Shown: piece after piece, positions 6,261 to 18,523 of the stretch | Position numbering within the stretch: the first letter of the stretch is position 1 | How the letters are laid out: every line of letters starts with the position of its first letter | The notes under the pieces: model-generated | What the model was told of the DNA's origin: nothing | Database searches by the model: none | Seen by the model: only the letters and a program-made list of their open reading frames with translations | Source: Clostridia bacterium | GTDB lineage: Bacteria > Bacillota > Clostridia > Christensenellales > Aristaeellaceae | Reading direction: 5' to 3' | Assembly: GCA_017430225.1 (NCBI GenBank) | Contig: JAFRNK010000108.1 | Span: forward strand, 1 to 50,020 | Length of the DNA: 50,020 nt | Position numbers and translations under genes: made by a program

Positions 6261-6328
6261 TATTTGAGTACCCTCATCCGACCTCACTGCGTTCGGCCAC
6301 CTTCCCCCGATATCGGGGGAAGGCTTTT
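6261..6328 (+). repeat. Left arm of a long imperfect inverted repeat (MITE-like)
   Basis: This arm pairs with 6458-6525. It contains CCCTCATCCG, a variable stem, and a perfect 24-base palindrome at 6300-6323 (CCTTCCCCCGAT and its complement) followed by CTTTT. On the plus strand the palindrome plus T-run can act as the terminator of the gene ending at 6231. Such CCCTCATCCG...TTCCCCCGA elements are dispersed in many Clostridial genomes (general knowledge). Confidence 0.75.
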
Positions 6329-6457
6329 GGTTTACGCTCTTTGAATTACACCATTTGTCTTATTGCTTCCGAGATTGTGAGGGAACCGATTGATCTGTTC
6401 ATGAATACAAGAAAAACGTTAATGCTCTGATACCGGCTCTCACATATTGGATGATGC

Positions 6458-6525
6458 AAAAAAGCCTTCCCCCGATCTCGGGGGAAGGTGGGCCGCAAAG
6501 CGGCCCGGATGAGGGCATTCAAATA
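6458..6525 (-). repeat. Right arm of the inverted repeat, also terminator of the symporter
   Basis: This is the reverse-complement copy of the left arm. The palindrome at 6465-6488 followed on the minus strand by a run of six T makes a good intrinsic terminator for the amino-acid symporter mRNA that ends at 6558. The roughly 130 bases between the arms hold no gene that can be supported. Confidence 0.75.
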
Positions 6526-6557: not shown

Positions 6558-8069
6558 TCATTCCTGATCCTCTCTCGCTTCCTGTTCTTTCTGGATTTCG
6601 GGGAAAGCAGAATACATGGGCTCCAGGTCGGGCTGCTCTTTCGTGATCTTCCTCGCGGAATAATTCTTCGTGATTTTCAGCACGAGCCCGCTCAAGCAGA
6701 CGACGCCGATCAGGTTGGGGATCGCCATCAGGCCGTTGAAGGTATCGCTCAGGTCGATCGCCAGGGAGACGTTCATGGTCGCGCTGATGACCACCATCGA
6801 AATGAAGATGATCTTGTACGCCAGCGTGGATTTGGTGCCGAACAGGTATTCCCAGGCCTTGGTGCCGTAATAACTCCAGCCCAGGATGGTCGTGAACGCG
6901 AACAGGCAGACAGCCACAGCCAGGAAGACGCCGCCGAAGGTGCCGAAGCTCTTGGCGAATGCTTCCGTCGCCAGGCCAAGCTTGGTCGTGCCGGAGATGG
7001 AAGCGCCGGTCTCCAGGTCGACCACGCCGGTGGTCAGAATGACCAGCGCGGTGCAGGTGCACACAATGATTGTGTCCGCGAAGACCTCAAAAATACCCCA
7101 CAGGCCCTGTACCACAGGCTCCTTCACATTGGACGCGGAATGCACCATGACCGAGGAGCCCAAGCCCGCCTCGTTGGAGAAAACACCGCGCTTGAAGCCC
7201 CAGGTCATGGCCTGCGCGATGACTGCGCCGCCCACGCCGCCGGCAGCGGACTTGAAGTTGAACGCGCCTGCGAAGATCGCGCCGAACGCCGCGGGCACCT
7301 TCGTGATATTCATGCAGATGATGATCAGGGAACCGATGACGAAAAACACTGCCATAAAGGGCACGATGCGCTCATTGGTCGTGGCGATGCGCTTCAGGCC
7401 GCCCAGGATGACTAGGGAAAGCAGCACGATCACCACCAGGCCGGTGACCAGATTGACGGTGCCGGTATCGCCAGGCAGCATCGTATTGATGCTCTCCGTG
7501 ATCGACGCCACCTGGCCCATATTGCCGATGCCGAAGGACGCGACAATCGCGAAAATGGAGAACAGGAACGCGAGCACCGGCCCGATGATCTTTCCGAACT
7601 TCATGCCACCCACGCCGTCCTTCAGGTAATACATGGCTCCGCCGCTCCATTCACCCTTCTCGTTGCGGCGGCGGAAATAGATGCCAAGCACGTTTTCGGA
7701 GTAGTTGGTCATCATGCCGACGATCGCGGCGATCCACATCCAGAACACGGCGCCGGGGCCGCCCATGGTGATCGCGTACGCCACACCGGCGATGTTTCCT
7801 GTGCCGATGGTCGCCGAAAGCGCCGTGCACAGCGCCTGTAACTGGGAAATGGAATGCCGGTCATGGCTGCTGCGGATGCCCTTTTCCTTTTTGAACAGCC
7901 CGCCGATCGTGTTCGACCACATGTGTCCGAAGCGGCGGAACTGGAAAAAGCCGGTCAGCAGCGTCATCAGGATGCCCGTGCCGATCAGCAGGACGAGGGC
8001 CGGGACCCCCCAGACCACACCGTTGATCTTGTCGTTGATGGATGCGATAGTTTGCGCGAAATCACTCAT
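6558..8069 (-). CDS. Sodium:alanine/glycine symporter (AGCS family)
   Basis: 503 residues, the normal length for the alanine-or-glycine:cation symporter family, with about ten hydrophobic helices. The family hallmark SALSATIGTGNIAGVA is at residues 83-98, followed by TMGGPGAVFWMW, and NEAGLGSS is found mid-protein. It would carry glycine or alanine across the membrane with sodium. A tandem glycine riboswitch and terminator precede it, which points to glycine as the substrate. The ribosome site is AAAGGGTGAG. The gene is single, with a terminator-forming repeat downstream. Confidence 0.95.
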   Translation of the reverse strand: MSDFAQTIASINDKINGVVWGVPALVLLIGTGILMTLLTGFFQFRRFGHMWSNTIGGLFKKEKGIRSSHDRHSISQLQALCTALSATIGTGNIAGVAYAITMGGPGAVFWMWIAAIVGMMTNYSENVLGIYFRRRNEKGEWSGGAMYYLKDGVGGMKFGKIIGPVLAFLFSIFAIVASFGIGNMGQVASITESINTMLPGDTGTVNLVTGLVVIVLLSLVILGGLKRIATTNERIVPFMAVFFVIGSLIIICMNITKVPAAFGAIFAGAFNFKSAAGGVGGAVIAQAMTWGFKRGVFSNEAGLGSSVMVHSASNVKEPVVQGLWGIFEVFADTIIVCTCTALVILTTGVVDLETGASISGTTKLGLATEAFAKSFGTFGGVFLAVAVCLFAFTTILGWSYYGTKAWEYLFGTKSTLAYKIIFISMVVISATMNVSLAIDLSDTFNGLMAIPNLIGVVCLSGLVLKITKNYSARKITKEQPDLEPMYSAFPEIQKEQEAREDQE

Positions 8070-8119: not shown

Positions 8120-8164
8120 CTGAAACAAACGGACATAAAGCGCCCACGTATGAGGACGTGTTTC

Positions 8165-8325
8165 GTCTCTGTCCTTTTGCCTGAGAGATTAGCCGGTGTC
8201 CCGGCCTTGCACCTTCGGCACCCGGTATTTCACCGGGCTTCTCCAGAGTGTCATCCGCATACAGTATCGCTTGCGCACCTGAAAGTGTTGCCTCTTCGGT
8301 CTCCCCTCCACGGGAAGGGTGTTTC
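8165..8325 (-). ncRNA. Tandem glycine riboswitch
   Basis: Two consecutive aptamers are readable on the minus strand. The upstream aptamer has GGGGAGACCGAAGAGGCAA and then TCAGGTGC. The downstream aptamer has CTCTGGAGAA, GCCGAAGGTGCAA and the diagnostic CTCTCAGGCAAAAGGACAG, which ends near 8165. These are the conserved cores of the gcvT-type glycine riboswitch. It lies about 95 bases before the AGCS symporter start, with a terminator in between. Confidence 0.92.
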
Positions 8326-12683: not shown

Positions 12684-12734
12684 ATGCGAGCTGACGTCGA
12701 TGAGACCTTCTCATCCCGCCCAGCGCGACTGTTT

Positions 12735-12807
12735 GGGGCTATAGCACAGTTGGTAGCGCGCTACATTCGCATTGTAGAGGTCAGGGGTTCGAATCCCCTT
12801 AGCTCCA
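12735..12807 (+). tRNA. tRNA-Ala(CGC)
   Basis: 73 bases with a complete cloverleaf. The acceptor stem is GGGGCTA / TAGCTCC (one G-T pair), the D arm has AGCACAGTTGGTAGCGC, and the anticodon stem CTACA / TGTAG encloses the loop TTCGCAT with anticodon CGC. The T arm is GGGG-TTCGAAT-CCCC and the discriminator is A. CCA is not encoded. The tRNA decodes GCG, a common alanine codon in this GC-rich DNA. A terminator follows directly. Confidence 0.96.
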
Positions 12808-12810
12808 TTC

Positions 12811-12846
12811 AAAAACAGGAGTCGCCTTCAGGTGGCTCCTGTTTTT
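12811..12846 (+). terminator. Terminator after tRNA-Ala
   Basis: Stem AAAAACAGGAG / CTCCTGTTTTT with a short internal loop around TCGCCTTCAGGTGG. The T-run follows the stem directly, and the A-run on the other side makes it potentially bidirectional. Confidence 0.8.
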
Positions 12847-12867
12847 GATATCGAATTAAGGTATTTA

Positions 12868-13048
12868 GAACCCCATACCGAAACAATGCGAAGCATTGTA
12901 GAGGCGCGGAGCTGAGCGCCAGCCCGGTGGGCTGTTCGCCGCAGACGAAAGCGAAGCGGAAGCGTGGTGAGCAAAAGAGCATTGCAAGCGGCAGCACAGC
13001 AATGCGACTATTGCGAACCTGACCGAGCGCAGCGAGACGGGGTTCGAA
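12868..13048 (+). repeat. tRNA-derived repeat, unit A
   Basis: The unit starts with GAACCCC and ends with GGGGTTCGAA, so its ends are inverted copies of each other. It carries the anticodon-arm half GCATTGTAGAGG of tRNA-Ala at 12893-12904. About 134 bases of GC-rich, hairpin-rich sequence follow, and then the T arm and acceptor end of tRNA-Ala resume at 13039-13062. The order of tRNA parts is preserved, so the unit looks like a tRNA-Ala copy with a large insertion at the variable loop and a degraded 5' half. Confidence 0.75.
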
Positions 13049-13063
13049 TCCCCTTAGCTCCAT

Positions 13064-13104
13064 GAACAAATTCCGGGTATCCGATGGATACCCGGAATTT
13101 GTTC
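13064..13104 (+). terminator. Long palindrome after repeat unit A
   Basis: An 18-bp perfect stem (AACAAATTCCGGGTATCC and its complement) with a 3-base loop begins directly after the tRNA-like 3' end. It mirrors the tRNA-terminator arrangement upstream and suggests that unit A once included a working tRNA plus terminator. Confidence 0.6.
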
Positions 13105-13121
13105 ATTCGTCCAAGAATTCC

Positions 13122-13291
13122 GAACCCCGTACCGAGACAATGCGAAGCATTGTAGAGGCGCGGAGCTGAAGCGCCCGCAGTGCGGGATGCAGCGAAGCGG
13201 AAGCGTGCTGAGCAAACGAGCGATGCAAGCGGCAGCGCCGGATCGCGACTATTGCGAAGCTGCCCGAGCGAAGCGAGACGGGGTTCGAAAC
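13122..13291 (+). repeat. tRNA-derived repeat, unit B
   Basis: This is the same element as unit A, with the left end GAACCCCGTACCGAGACAATG and the right end ACGGGGTTCGAAAC. The 99-base core 13137-13235 differs at a single base from the core of unit C. The tRNA acceptor sequence after GGGGTTCGAA has decayed. Confidence 0.75.
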
Positions 13292-13302
13292 TCCTGAATT
13301 CC

Positions 13303-13410
13303 CGTACTGATACAATGCGAAGCATTGCAGAGGCGCGGAGCTGAAGCGCCCGCAGTGCGGGATGCAGCGAAGCGGAAGCGTGCTGAGCAAACGAGCGATG
13401 CAAGCGGCAG
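13303..13410 (+). repeat. tRNA-derived repeat, unit C (truncated)
   Basis: The core at 13312-13410 matches unit B over 99 bases with one substitution. The right end is missing; unique sequence with the promoter of the peptidase gene begins after it. Confidence 0.75.
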
Positions 13411-13449
13411 CAAGAGTATACCCAAAGCAGCGCCGGGGCTGTAATTCTC

Positions 13450-13478
13450 TTGCGCAGCAGAATCAGGCGTGATATAAT
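13450..13478 (+). promoter_or_regulatory. Promoter of the S37-type peptidase gene
   Basis: TTGCGC at 13450-13455, 17-base spacer, TATAAT at 13473-13478, 60 bases before the start codon. Confidence 0.6.
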
Positions 13479-13537
13479 TTCTCTTGTGGAAGCAGGAAAA
13501 CATAACAAATTCATCTTGAACAGTGGGAAAAAATCTC

Positions 13538-15073: not shown

Positions 15074-15145
15074 GGGGCGTAAGTACGGTTACTTCGTTAG
15101 CGTGCTACATTCGCATTGCAGAGGTGCGGAGCCGAAGCGCCCGTA
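15074..15145 (+). pseudogene. tRNA-Ala 5'-half remnant fused to the repeat core (unit D)
   Basis: Positions 15098-15125 match tRNA-Ala 12754-12781 (D-arm end, anticodon arm with TTCGCAT, AGAGGT) at 26 of 28 bases. A weaker match to GGGGC begins at 15074. Where the T arm should follow, the sequence instead continues with GCGGAGCCGAAGCGCCC, the beginning of the repeat core of units A-C, and then stops. It is complementary to unit A, which keeps the tRNA 3' half. Confidence 0.65.
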
Positions 15146-17074: not shown

Positions 17075-18523
17075 ATGAAGAAAACATATATCACGACGAT
17101 GCCCAACCACATCGGCGCTTTTCTGAAAGCAAGCGAGTGCTTTGCGGCACTGGGCGTCAACATTACCAGGGTAAGCTATAACAAGCCGGTGGATTCCCAC
17201 ACGCTGTTCATCGACGCTGAAGGGAGCGAAGACCAGCTGAAAGCGGCTGATGAGCAGCTCGCACAGATCGGCTATCTCCAGCACTCGGACAGTGCCAAGG
17301 GCATCGTGCTTGTGGAATTCCAACTGAGGGACGTGCCGGGCAGCGTCACGGCGGTACTTCGGATCATCAGCGAATACCGGCTGAACATTTCCTATATCAG
17401 CTCCCAGGAAAACGGCAGCGAATACCAGGCGTTCAAGATGGGCCTGTTCGTGGAGGACGAGGCTGTACTGAGGGCGTTCCTGGCGCGGGTGGAAACCCTG
17501 TGCCCGGTGCGGGTGATTGACTACAATCATTCAGAGAAGGTCTACGACAACAGCATCTTCTATCGCTCCTTCGTCTCAGGGCTGATGCAGACGCTTGAAT
17601 TGCCGGAAGAGAGCAGGGATGTTCTGCTCGTCAATTCCAACATGATCATGCAGCTGCTGGACGAAAAAGGCCTGTCGCCCTACAAGACCTTCGAGAGCAT
17701 CAGCCGCTTCGCGGAGCTGCTGTCCGCCTGCCGCGGAAGCGCCTTTTCGCCGAGGATTTCCCGGCACAAAATCACGGAAAACACCCAGATCACGCTGATC
17801 GAGCCGCCCTGCGGCAGCAACACGGCGATCCTGCAAAGCGGCAATGAGGTCCTGTTCATCGACTGTGGTTACGCGCTGTACCGACGTGAGATGGAAGCGC
17901 TCTTCCGCCGGCTGCTGCCTGCCTGGGACGGCATGCGCAAGCGCATATTCATCACCCATGCCGACCTGGACCACTGCGGGCTGCTGCCGATGTTCGACGA
18001 GGTTCTGGCCAGCGCGAAATCGGCCGAGTGCCTCGCGCTTGAATACGAAGGAAAGCCCGGCTTCCGGGAACAGAACCCGGTGCACCAGCCCTACATCAGC
18101 ATCTGCAAGACGCTGACGCGCTATGCGCCGCCAAAACCGGAAAAGGTACAGGCGCTGTGGGATGTTCCGGGCGAACAGGAAACGCCCCTTGCTCAGATGG
18201 GCTTCTTCTGCTTTGGGGAGATGTGTTTTGAGGTATTCCAAGGCGCAGGCGGCCACCTGAGAGGAGAAACCGTGCTGATCGACTTCACCCATCATGTAGC
18301 TTTTACAGGCGATATCTACGTGAACGTCCACGGAATGACCAGGGAACAGGCGACCTATAACCAATATGCGCCGGTACTGATGACTTCGGTGGATACAGAT
18401 CCAGCGCTGTGCGCGGAGGAGCGGCGGGCGGTCATGCAGCGTCTGGGCGTAGGCCAGTGGCAGATATTCGGCGCCCACGGCATGAAGAAGGATTACCAGG
18501 TATCTGAGGATAAAACCCCCTGA
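17075..18523 (+). CDS. Two ACT domains fused to a metallo-beta-lactamase-fold hydrolase
   Basis: 482 residues. Residues 1-70 and 75-150 look like two successive ACT domains (MPNHIGAFLKASECFAALGVNITRVSY; then LRDVPGSVTAVLRIISEYRLNISYISS), the small-molecule (usually amino-acid) sensing fold. From about 245 a metallo-beta-lactamase fold follows, with strand VLFIDCGY, the metal motif HADLDHCG (His295, Asp297, Asp299, His300 region) and later FTGDIYVN and GAHG. The hydrolase would act on an ester, thioester or phosphodiester under allosteric control by a ligand. Start ATG follows AGGTGAG. A bidirectional terminator ends the transcript. The architecture is uncommon. Confidence 0.8.
   Translation: MKKTYITTMPNHIGAFLKASECFAALGVNITRVSYNKPVDSHTLFIDAEGSEDQLKAADEQLAQIGYLQHSDSAKGIVLVEFQLRDVPGSVTAVLRIISEYRLNISYISSQENGSEYQAFKMGLFVEDEAVLRAFLARVETLCPVRVIDYNHSEKVYDNSIFYRSFVSGLMQTLELPEESRDVLLVNSNMIMQLLDEKGLSPYKTFESISRFAELLSACRGSAFSPRISRHKITENTQITLIEPPCGSNTAILQSGNEVLFIDCGYALYRREMEALFRRLLPAWDGMRKRIFITHADLDHCGLLPMFDEVLASAKSAECLALEYEGKPGFREQNPVHQPYISICKTLTRYAPPKPEKVQALWDVPGEQETPLAQMGFFCFGEMCFEVFQGAGGHLRGETVLIDFTHHVAFTGDIYVNVHGMTREQATYNQYAPVLMTSVDTDPALCAEERRAVMQRLGVGQWQIFGAHGMKKDYQVSEDKTP

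Follow-up and report, generated by a model that had tools for sequence, protein, structure and literature searches.

A dispersed, gene-free DNA hairpin that may take its arms from the tRNA genes at which it lands

Described systems that the locus resembles

Genes for tRNA are favoured landing sites of bacterial mobile DNA, the familiar cases being large and integrase-bearing. The locus described here lies in a window of 50,020 nucleotides (the whole stretch of DNA analysed; contig C102 of genome G000, a clostridial assembly of 2.65 Mb in 131 contigs that is 82% complete), in which an intact tRNA-Ala(CGC) gene is followed by three repeat units, A, B and C. A complete unit consists of a hairpin-forming core (core1, with hairpins P1 and P2 and, in the lineage linked to tRNA genes, a further hairpin P3) set between antisense and sense copies of pieces of the adjoining tRNA, which can pair with each other as an outer stem, P0; at other loci a second, unrelated core (core2) is found between arms of the same kind. 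Like a tRNA-targeting integrative element, unit A presents an intact tRNA gene and then a direct repeat of that gene's 3' end (24 of 24 bases); unlike such an element, it has an insert of ~230 bases without genes and an additional antisense copy of tRNA sequence, and of the seven window ORFs scanned nearby, none belongs to a recombinase, integrase or cargo family.

In being short, dispersed, non-coding hairpins of many copies with no ORF of their own, the units resemble the REP/BIME/REPIN sequences and their RAYT (TnpAREP) transposases. REP is defined (PMC6006769) by a hairpin and a GT[AG]G foot that lies within 0-2 bases of it. Foot motifs of this kind can be picked out by eye: some tRNA-linked copies read GTGG at the base of P2, and core2 has GTAG four bases before a hairpin; many core1 copies (...CCCAGTGAGC) have no GT[AG]G foot. 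The differences from REP/RAYT are that the core has two or three hairpins, a conserved P2 sequence and tRNA arms, and that 14 of 18 high-copy genomes gave no Y1 transposase match. With the IS200/IS605 insertion sequences the units may share folded DNA ends and insertion without target duplication, of which none is seen, and the outer stem of P1, which covaries, can include the left flank: at locus L104, where the empty site is inferred only, the left flank GGTC could pair with an internal GACC. In contrast to IS200/IS605, the core is ~100 bases long without tnpA or tnpB, its stems are Watson-Crick paired, and no transposase has been found for it.

The comparison with integron attC sites and cassettes turns on the tandem arrays and on a folded single strand that would rebuild a double-stranded recombination site. 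Here, unlike in integrons, neither an integrase (seven ORFs scanned) nor cargo is seen, and the sequence of the putative site is that of the local tRNA. The R and L boxes of attC sites read RYYYAAC and GTTRRRY; by eye, they are not present in units A and B. Being repeated and containing tRNA sequence, the units also recall tRNA-derived SINEs, except that their tRNA part is local and variable instead of being an inherited head. The traits of MITEs derived from DDE transposons are not apparent, in that inspection by eye of filled and empty sites makes no terminal inverted repeats or target duplication obvious. No published description of the core family was found within the open-licence literature.

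The tRNA-Ala(CGC) locus and its units

Features of this locus lie on the forward strand unless marked (-). The intact tRNA-Ala(CGC) gene occupies 12735-12807 (Rfam RF00005, 66.4 bits; ARAGORN places it at 12734-12808); it is identical in genomes G001 and G003, there without a unit behind it. A terminator-like hairpin (12809-12848, an inverted repeat with 19-nt arms that are 89% complementary) separates the tRNA from unit A (12868-13062), with no gene between the two. Unit A opens with GAACCCC (12868-12874), antisense to the T arm of the tRNA and forming the 5' strand of P0, and continues with a hairpin, Pa (12884-12904), in which CAATGC (12884-12889), an antisense copy of the 3' strand of the anticodon stem, is joined by a GAA loop to a sense piece of the anticodon stem, GCATTGTAGAGG (12893-12904); Pa has analogues in units at other tRNAs. 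There follow 134 bases (12905-13038) that include core1 (12905-13020), in which P1 (~12905-12965) and P2 (12966-13019, TGAGC...GCGAA) are placed by the core alignment and its pair counts, an alignment that contains unit B and not unit A. P3 (13023-13036, CCGAGC GCA GCGAG; assigned by eye) precedes the sense copy of the T arm and acceptor 3' strand, GGGGTTCGAATCCCCTTAGCTCCA (13039-13062), which is identical to the 3' end of the tRNA at all 24 bases and whose first 7 bases can pair with 12868-12874 as P0. A perfect terminator-like palindrome with 21-nt arms (13062-13106) stands behind. The original prediction, of an anticodon-arm piece, about 134 bases, and then a T arm and acceptor end followed by a palindrome of their own, is thus borne out by the coordinates as well as by the 24-base identity.

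Unit B (13122-13289) has the 5' strand of P0 (13122-13128), Pa, core1, P3 and a sense T arm, GGGGTTCGAA (13280-13289), without the acceptor end. Unit C (13301-13411) is a truncated copy that lacks the P0 end and the T arm and ends near 13411. The cores of B and C (13137-13235 and 13312-13410) differ, as had been noted, at one of 99 positions. Covariance-model matches fall at 12892-13023 on unit A (E 4.5e-17), 13146-13264 on unit B (E 2.3e-22) and 13321-13462 on unit C (E 2.2e-13). The claim that the outer ends are inverted copies equal to the T-arm sequence holds for A and B, in which GAACCCC (12868, 13122) is matched by GGGGTTC (13039, 13280), and fails for C, which reads GAATTCC and has no T arm. 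In A and B the core of ~120-134 bases occupies the variable-loop position of a tRNA copy; insertion at that position had been proposed, and by eye it is also seen in degenerate tRNA copies at three other loci (L021, L200 and L202). A fourth copy in the window (~15098-15143) is heavily truncated, to an anticodon-arm piece and the start of the core.

Several other features of the window were read in passing. Two ORFs antisense to tRNA 3' ends, 12809-13069 (-) and 13008-13514 (-), carry the motifs RGFEPRL and GIRTPS, which we take to resemble those of falsely annotated proteins; both ORFs are probably spurious. An ARAGORN call of tRNA-Ala(TGC) at 18055-18140 (-), without Rfam support and inside the long ORF 17075-18523, is probably false. 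A glycine riboswitch aptamer (8159-8256 (-), Rfam 60.9 bits) has a sodium:alanine symporter gene (6558-8069 (-), by Pfam) directly downstream.

A conserved fold at filled and empty sites

Core1 is a family with a conserved fold, present at sites that exist in filled and in empty form. In an alignment of 41 cores, 94.4% of the 929 cells of P1 and P2 are paired as against 77.1% in shuffled alignments (none of 500 shuffles reaches the observed value), 15 of the 23 core pairs have changed on both sides, and the covariation score is 0.428 versus 0.138 in shuffles; sliding the pairing partners lowers core pairing to 29-42%. A second subfamily in G000 retains the P2 fold with a different stem, GGCA:TGCC in place of GCAA:TTGC. 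At E up to 0.1, the covariance model has 29 matches in the genome of the window, part of which were read individually; of 150 genomes of the window's family, it matches 71, with at most 24 candidates scored per genome. These counts, together with the filled and empty sites described below, uphold the proposal of a mobile and amplifying element.

A strict P2 pattern matched 90 stretches in named genomes; among the 80 matches listed, 4 come from Patescibacteria-type MAGs and the others from genomes titled Clostridia, Christensenella, Eubacteriales or other Bacillota. Patescibacteria were rejected as the main host: among 379 genomes of that phylum a strict pattern matched 2, each of which was a carrier known beforehand, and 6 of the 7 genomes reached through loci hold one copy each. 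No Rfam family matches the core (the window was scanned at gathering scores, and 8 loci at E up to 5), the phage, plasmid and E. coli collections gave no core match, and the strict patterns of both cores found none in viral contigs. An autonomous parent with separated halves was also considered; solitary half motifs occur in the loci fetched, none resembled an insertion-sequence end by eye, and that candidate was set aside.

The filled and empty sites are of three kinds, one being the tRNA-Ala(CGC) gene, which is followed by units in the window and by none in G001 and G003. In G000, a REP-like repeat, CTTCCCCCG..CGGGGGAAGG..GGATGAGGG, is 56-62 bases long as displayed in its empty copies and 151-162 bases in four copies filled by the core (L226, L232, L234 and L240), the entry point lying between CGGGGG and AAGG (CGGGGG^AAGG). 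Behind tRNA-Ser(GGA), core1 stands beside core2 in genome G004, and the site is empty in G000, G003 and G007. At these four REP-like sites and one tRNA-Ser site no target duplication is obvious. Junctions show small changes: AAGGT to ACGGT, CGGG to GGGG and, in tRNA-Val, TC to AC or its loss. Since one or two junction bases have changed, the ends of the element are known only to within a few bases.

Two further observations concern the REP-like repeat. The window itself holds an inverted pair of REP-like palindromes, CTTCCCCCGATNTCGGGGGAAGG..GGATGAGGG (~6295-6520), with empty copies at ~6300 and ~6465. At L237 (G000:C92:1358-1460), a core with a REP-type left flank has a right flank from another repeat (TAGGTGCGAGAGGAAAAGG), which suggests recombination within the core.

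The character of the pairing bears on whether the folded molecule is DNA or RNA. G-U pairs make up 2.2% of the standard core pairs (1.2% without the outermost pair) versus 6.4% in the acceptor and T stems of tRNAs (104, from the same genomes), which as a control are different molecules from the core. Among 101 copies, neighbouring ORFs show no strand bias (30 on the same and 25 on the opposite strand upstream, 24 and 26 downstream); 21 of the 101 overlap a possible gene (an ORF of at least 150 codons). P0 of unit A is present in the minimum-energy fold computed with DNA parameters (z -2.8) and absent from that computed with RNA parameters (z -2.0); for core1, folding energy by itself is unremarkable (DNA z -0.9 to -2.8). 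The rarity of G-U pairs, the lack of strand bias and the predicted fold of unit A favour an element that would fold as DNA rather than as RNA.

Local tRNA pieces and their possible origin

Some copies of the core adjoin other tRNA genes; the association is far from general, since only 9 of 82 strict matches have a tRNA just upstream on the same strand. A tRNA gene lies within 1 kb of 10 of the 82, and the 9 upstream tRNAs start at most 231 bases from the core match. A pattern for the tRNA-linked lineage (the end of P2 plus P3, up to 3 mismatches) has 26 matches, spread over 18 of 300 family genomes. They lie behind Val(CAC), Val(GAC) and Ala(CGC) genes and inside degenerate tRNA copies, and some, such as L204 and L205, have no tRNA recognised nearby. 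Elsewhere the core sits in the T loop of a Lys(CTT) tRNA (L154), at the D-loop position of a 5' partial tRNA copy (L158) and, at three of four Patescibacteria loci, within or next to the T loop of an incomplete copy of a Gln or Leu gene. The tRNA at one Patescibacteria locus (L120) is cut by the contig end, and the fourth locus (L116) is not at a tRNA.

The tRNA pieces of a unit match the gene beside it. For 24 units with an intact upstream tRNA, compared with 5000 permutations of the tRNAs in which kinship of the units is ignored, a unit's longest exact sense match to its own tRNA is on average 19.3 bases long (8.2 permuted; largest of the 5000, 11.7), its antisense match 10.1 (6.3; 8.0) and its P0 complement 9.0 (6.4; 7.8). 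Exact sense copies of at least 16 bases (16-29) are found in 18 of the 24, and two units (L154, behind Gly, and L158, behind Glu) have no piece derived from the tRNA nearest to them upstream. Because the pieces match the local gene at other tRNA genes as well, they come from the site and not from an ancestor of the element. The antisense arm is a property of the tRNA-linked copies, since over 115 copies inverted arms do not rise above permutation (mean 6.95 for own arms versus 6.50; largest of 2000 permutations, 6.96); it is missing from some tRNA-linked units, L199 among them. A terminator stretch (CCACCTAAGGACGCTGATATTGATAC...) is common to L247, behind tRNA-Ala in G003, and L039, behind a tRNA-Val unit in G015, as if terminators were exchanged between tRNA loci.

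Copies of a tRNA beside its own gene are also found outside core1 units. Core2, GGGCCGGTAGTGAATGAC..GTCAGAGCCGGCCC plus a small hairpin, lies between antisense and sense copies of tRNA 3' ends and is common to loci L315, L340 and L321; its pattern occurs at 8 places in 8 of 300 genomes, the hosts being, by ARAGORN, Ser(GGA) in four cases, Arg(ACG) in one and Trp(CCA) in one, with two more having tRNA 3'-end-like arms by eye. One core2 unit (L367) folds as DNA with z -9.0. Fold-back tRNA palindromes that enclose no core precede tRNA-Arg(ACG) in G019 (L356) and tRNA-Ala in G001, G003 and G009. In a survey of 117 tRNA genes of four genomes for flanking partial copies of 11 or more bases, own copies numbered 7 (upstream direct), 3 (upstream inverted), 5 (downstream direct) and 5 (downstream inverted), versus 9, 4, 7 and 9 among 1170 control comparisons with tRNAs of other loci; the core2 loci L315, L340 and L321 are among those with own copies. 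A related arrangement is seen at L246 and L247 (~100 bases upstream of tRNA-Ala) and at L307 and L328 (upstream of tRNA-Val), where the first 15-22 bases of the tRNA are followed by an inverted or palindromic stretch; L328 has three such copies of the tRNA 5' start in a row.

The account that we consider probable, without holding it with great assurance, is of a small non-coding, non-autonomous mobile DNA hairpin that acquires its arms from the tRNA gene where it lands. The core (~93-134 bases) folds into two or three hairpins, would probably move as folded single-stranded DNA, and inserts without obvious target duplication, mostly just after a G run in the sites read, into the arms or at the foot of existing hairpins and at tRNA genes as well. 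At a tRNA the element is held by a partial gene copy with an intact copy staying alongside; tolerance of the element only where an intact copy remains would fit the occurrence of partial copies beside intact genes. Its sense and antisense pieces, which can close it by P0, would be taken from the local gene when it lands, and a recombinase or transposase acting in trans would do the joining. The candidates for such an enzyme that were followed, a RAYT (Y1 transposase) or a reverse transcriptase, were rejected as drivers because gene presence does not track copy number: Y1_Tnp (PF01797) is found in 4 of 18 high-copy genomes and 3 of 14 genomes without copies, and RVT_1 in 5 of 18 versus 5 of 14, neither being matched in G000, in assemblies that are incomplete. 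The antisense arm may originate in a landing reaction that rebuilds a double-stranded copy of the target, on the principle of the integron, or in template switching with later correction.

These two origins, taken as explanations in their own right, define the main rivals. The notion that no special enzyme is at work at tRNA genes (template switching at forks making the fold-backs, hairpin correction keeping the arms complementary, gene conversion keeping the sense arm equal, and core1 jumping into the resulting palindromes) is possible, if on the unlikely side; it would account for the fold-backs without a core in G019, G001, G003 and G009 and for the REP-like insertions, likewise placed in a hairpin arm, and template switching is reported (PMC8604942, PMC3820800) to homogenise the arms of inverted repeats. 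Random insertion into palindromes would not, however, place core2 at tRNA 3' ends in 8 of 8 cases (two by eye), nor is it favoured by the recurrence of the antisense-core-sense plan at Ala, Val(CAC), Val(GAC), Lys, Ser, Arg and Trp genes. That the same arms are worn by two unrelated cores speaks for folded-single-strand recombination sites resembling attC, in which P0 would rebuild the double-stranded tRNA 3' end for a tyrosine recombinase to join, a unit with its terminator would be a cassette, and the window would be an array of three. Tandem units behind one tRNA, with direct repeats of its 3' end and terminators (in the window and at L199 and L197), point the same way, as does a copy that resembles a cassette, stands apart from its tRNA and has CCACCAAAGAAAA at either junction (L034 compared with L035). 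Inspection by eye of L193 and L207, two units with a T arm that has diverged from the tRNA, suggests that P0 follows the arm of the unit itself over 5-6 bases; these matches seem short enough to be chance, are allowed by the landing-reaction and the template-switching accounts alike, and are not singled out by the automatic tRNA-piece test. Given that the seven nearby ORFs scanned include no integrase, that no cargo genes were seen between tRNA and unit in the loci read and that many core1 copies lie outside tRNA genes, a recombination site of this kind is to be regarded as doubtful.

A structured RNA expressed from the tRNA operon, acting as a regulator, ribozyme or tRNA decoy and pairing with the tRNA through its antisense arm, would explain the covarying helices, the presence of all 9 upstream tRNAs on the strand of the unit and the antisense pieces, which could pair with tRNA. 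It is improbable in view of the few G-U pairs, the lack of strand bias among copies at large, the terminator-like hairpin standing between tRNA and unit, the lack of an Rfam match on the core and the loss of P0 of unit A from the RNA minimum-energy fold. The original prediction of a tRNA-derived origin comparable to that of SINEs has to be given up almost entirely: in favour of a retroelement of that kind, units A and B begin and end with tRNA pieces, but many copies of the core have no tRNA parts, which had been named beforehand as a ground for dismissing such an origin, those parts switch elsewhere to fit the local gene, and G000 (82% complete as assembled) has no reverse transcriptase match.

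The hairpin that acquires arms where it lands stays our preferred account. Its boldest extension, which we advance only tentatively, is that the folded single-stranded hairpin docks at the local tRNA gene by means of a double-stranded copy of that gene's 3' end which it carries, so that tRNA genes would serve as landing pads for integron-like, gene-free cassettes, used by at least two unrelated cores, one of them also in Patescibacteria. What has been found is a gene-free hairpin of ~100 bases that, beside several kinds of tRNA gene, bears antisense and sense copies of the adjoining tRNA, and an unrelated core that does likewise; such a pattern suggests that DNA can settle beside tRNA genes in a manner not yet described. 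Should the landing reaction produce the arms, it would amount to a new kind of target recognition, in which folded DNA mirrors its target; should template switching be their source, the units would document how palindromes arise in nature at tRNA genes.
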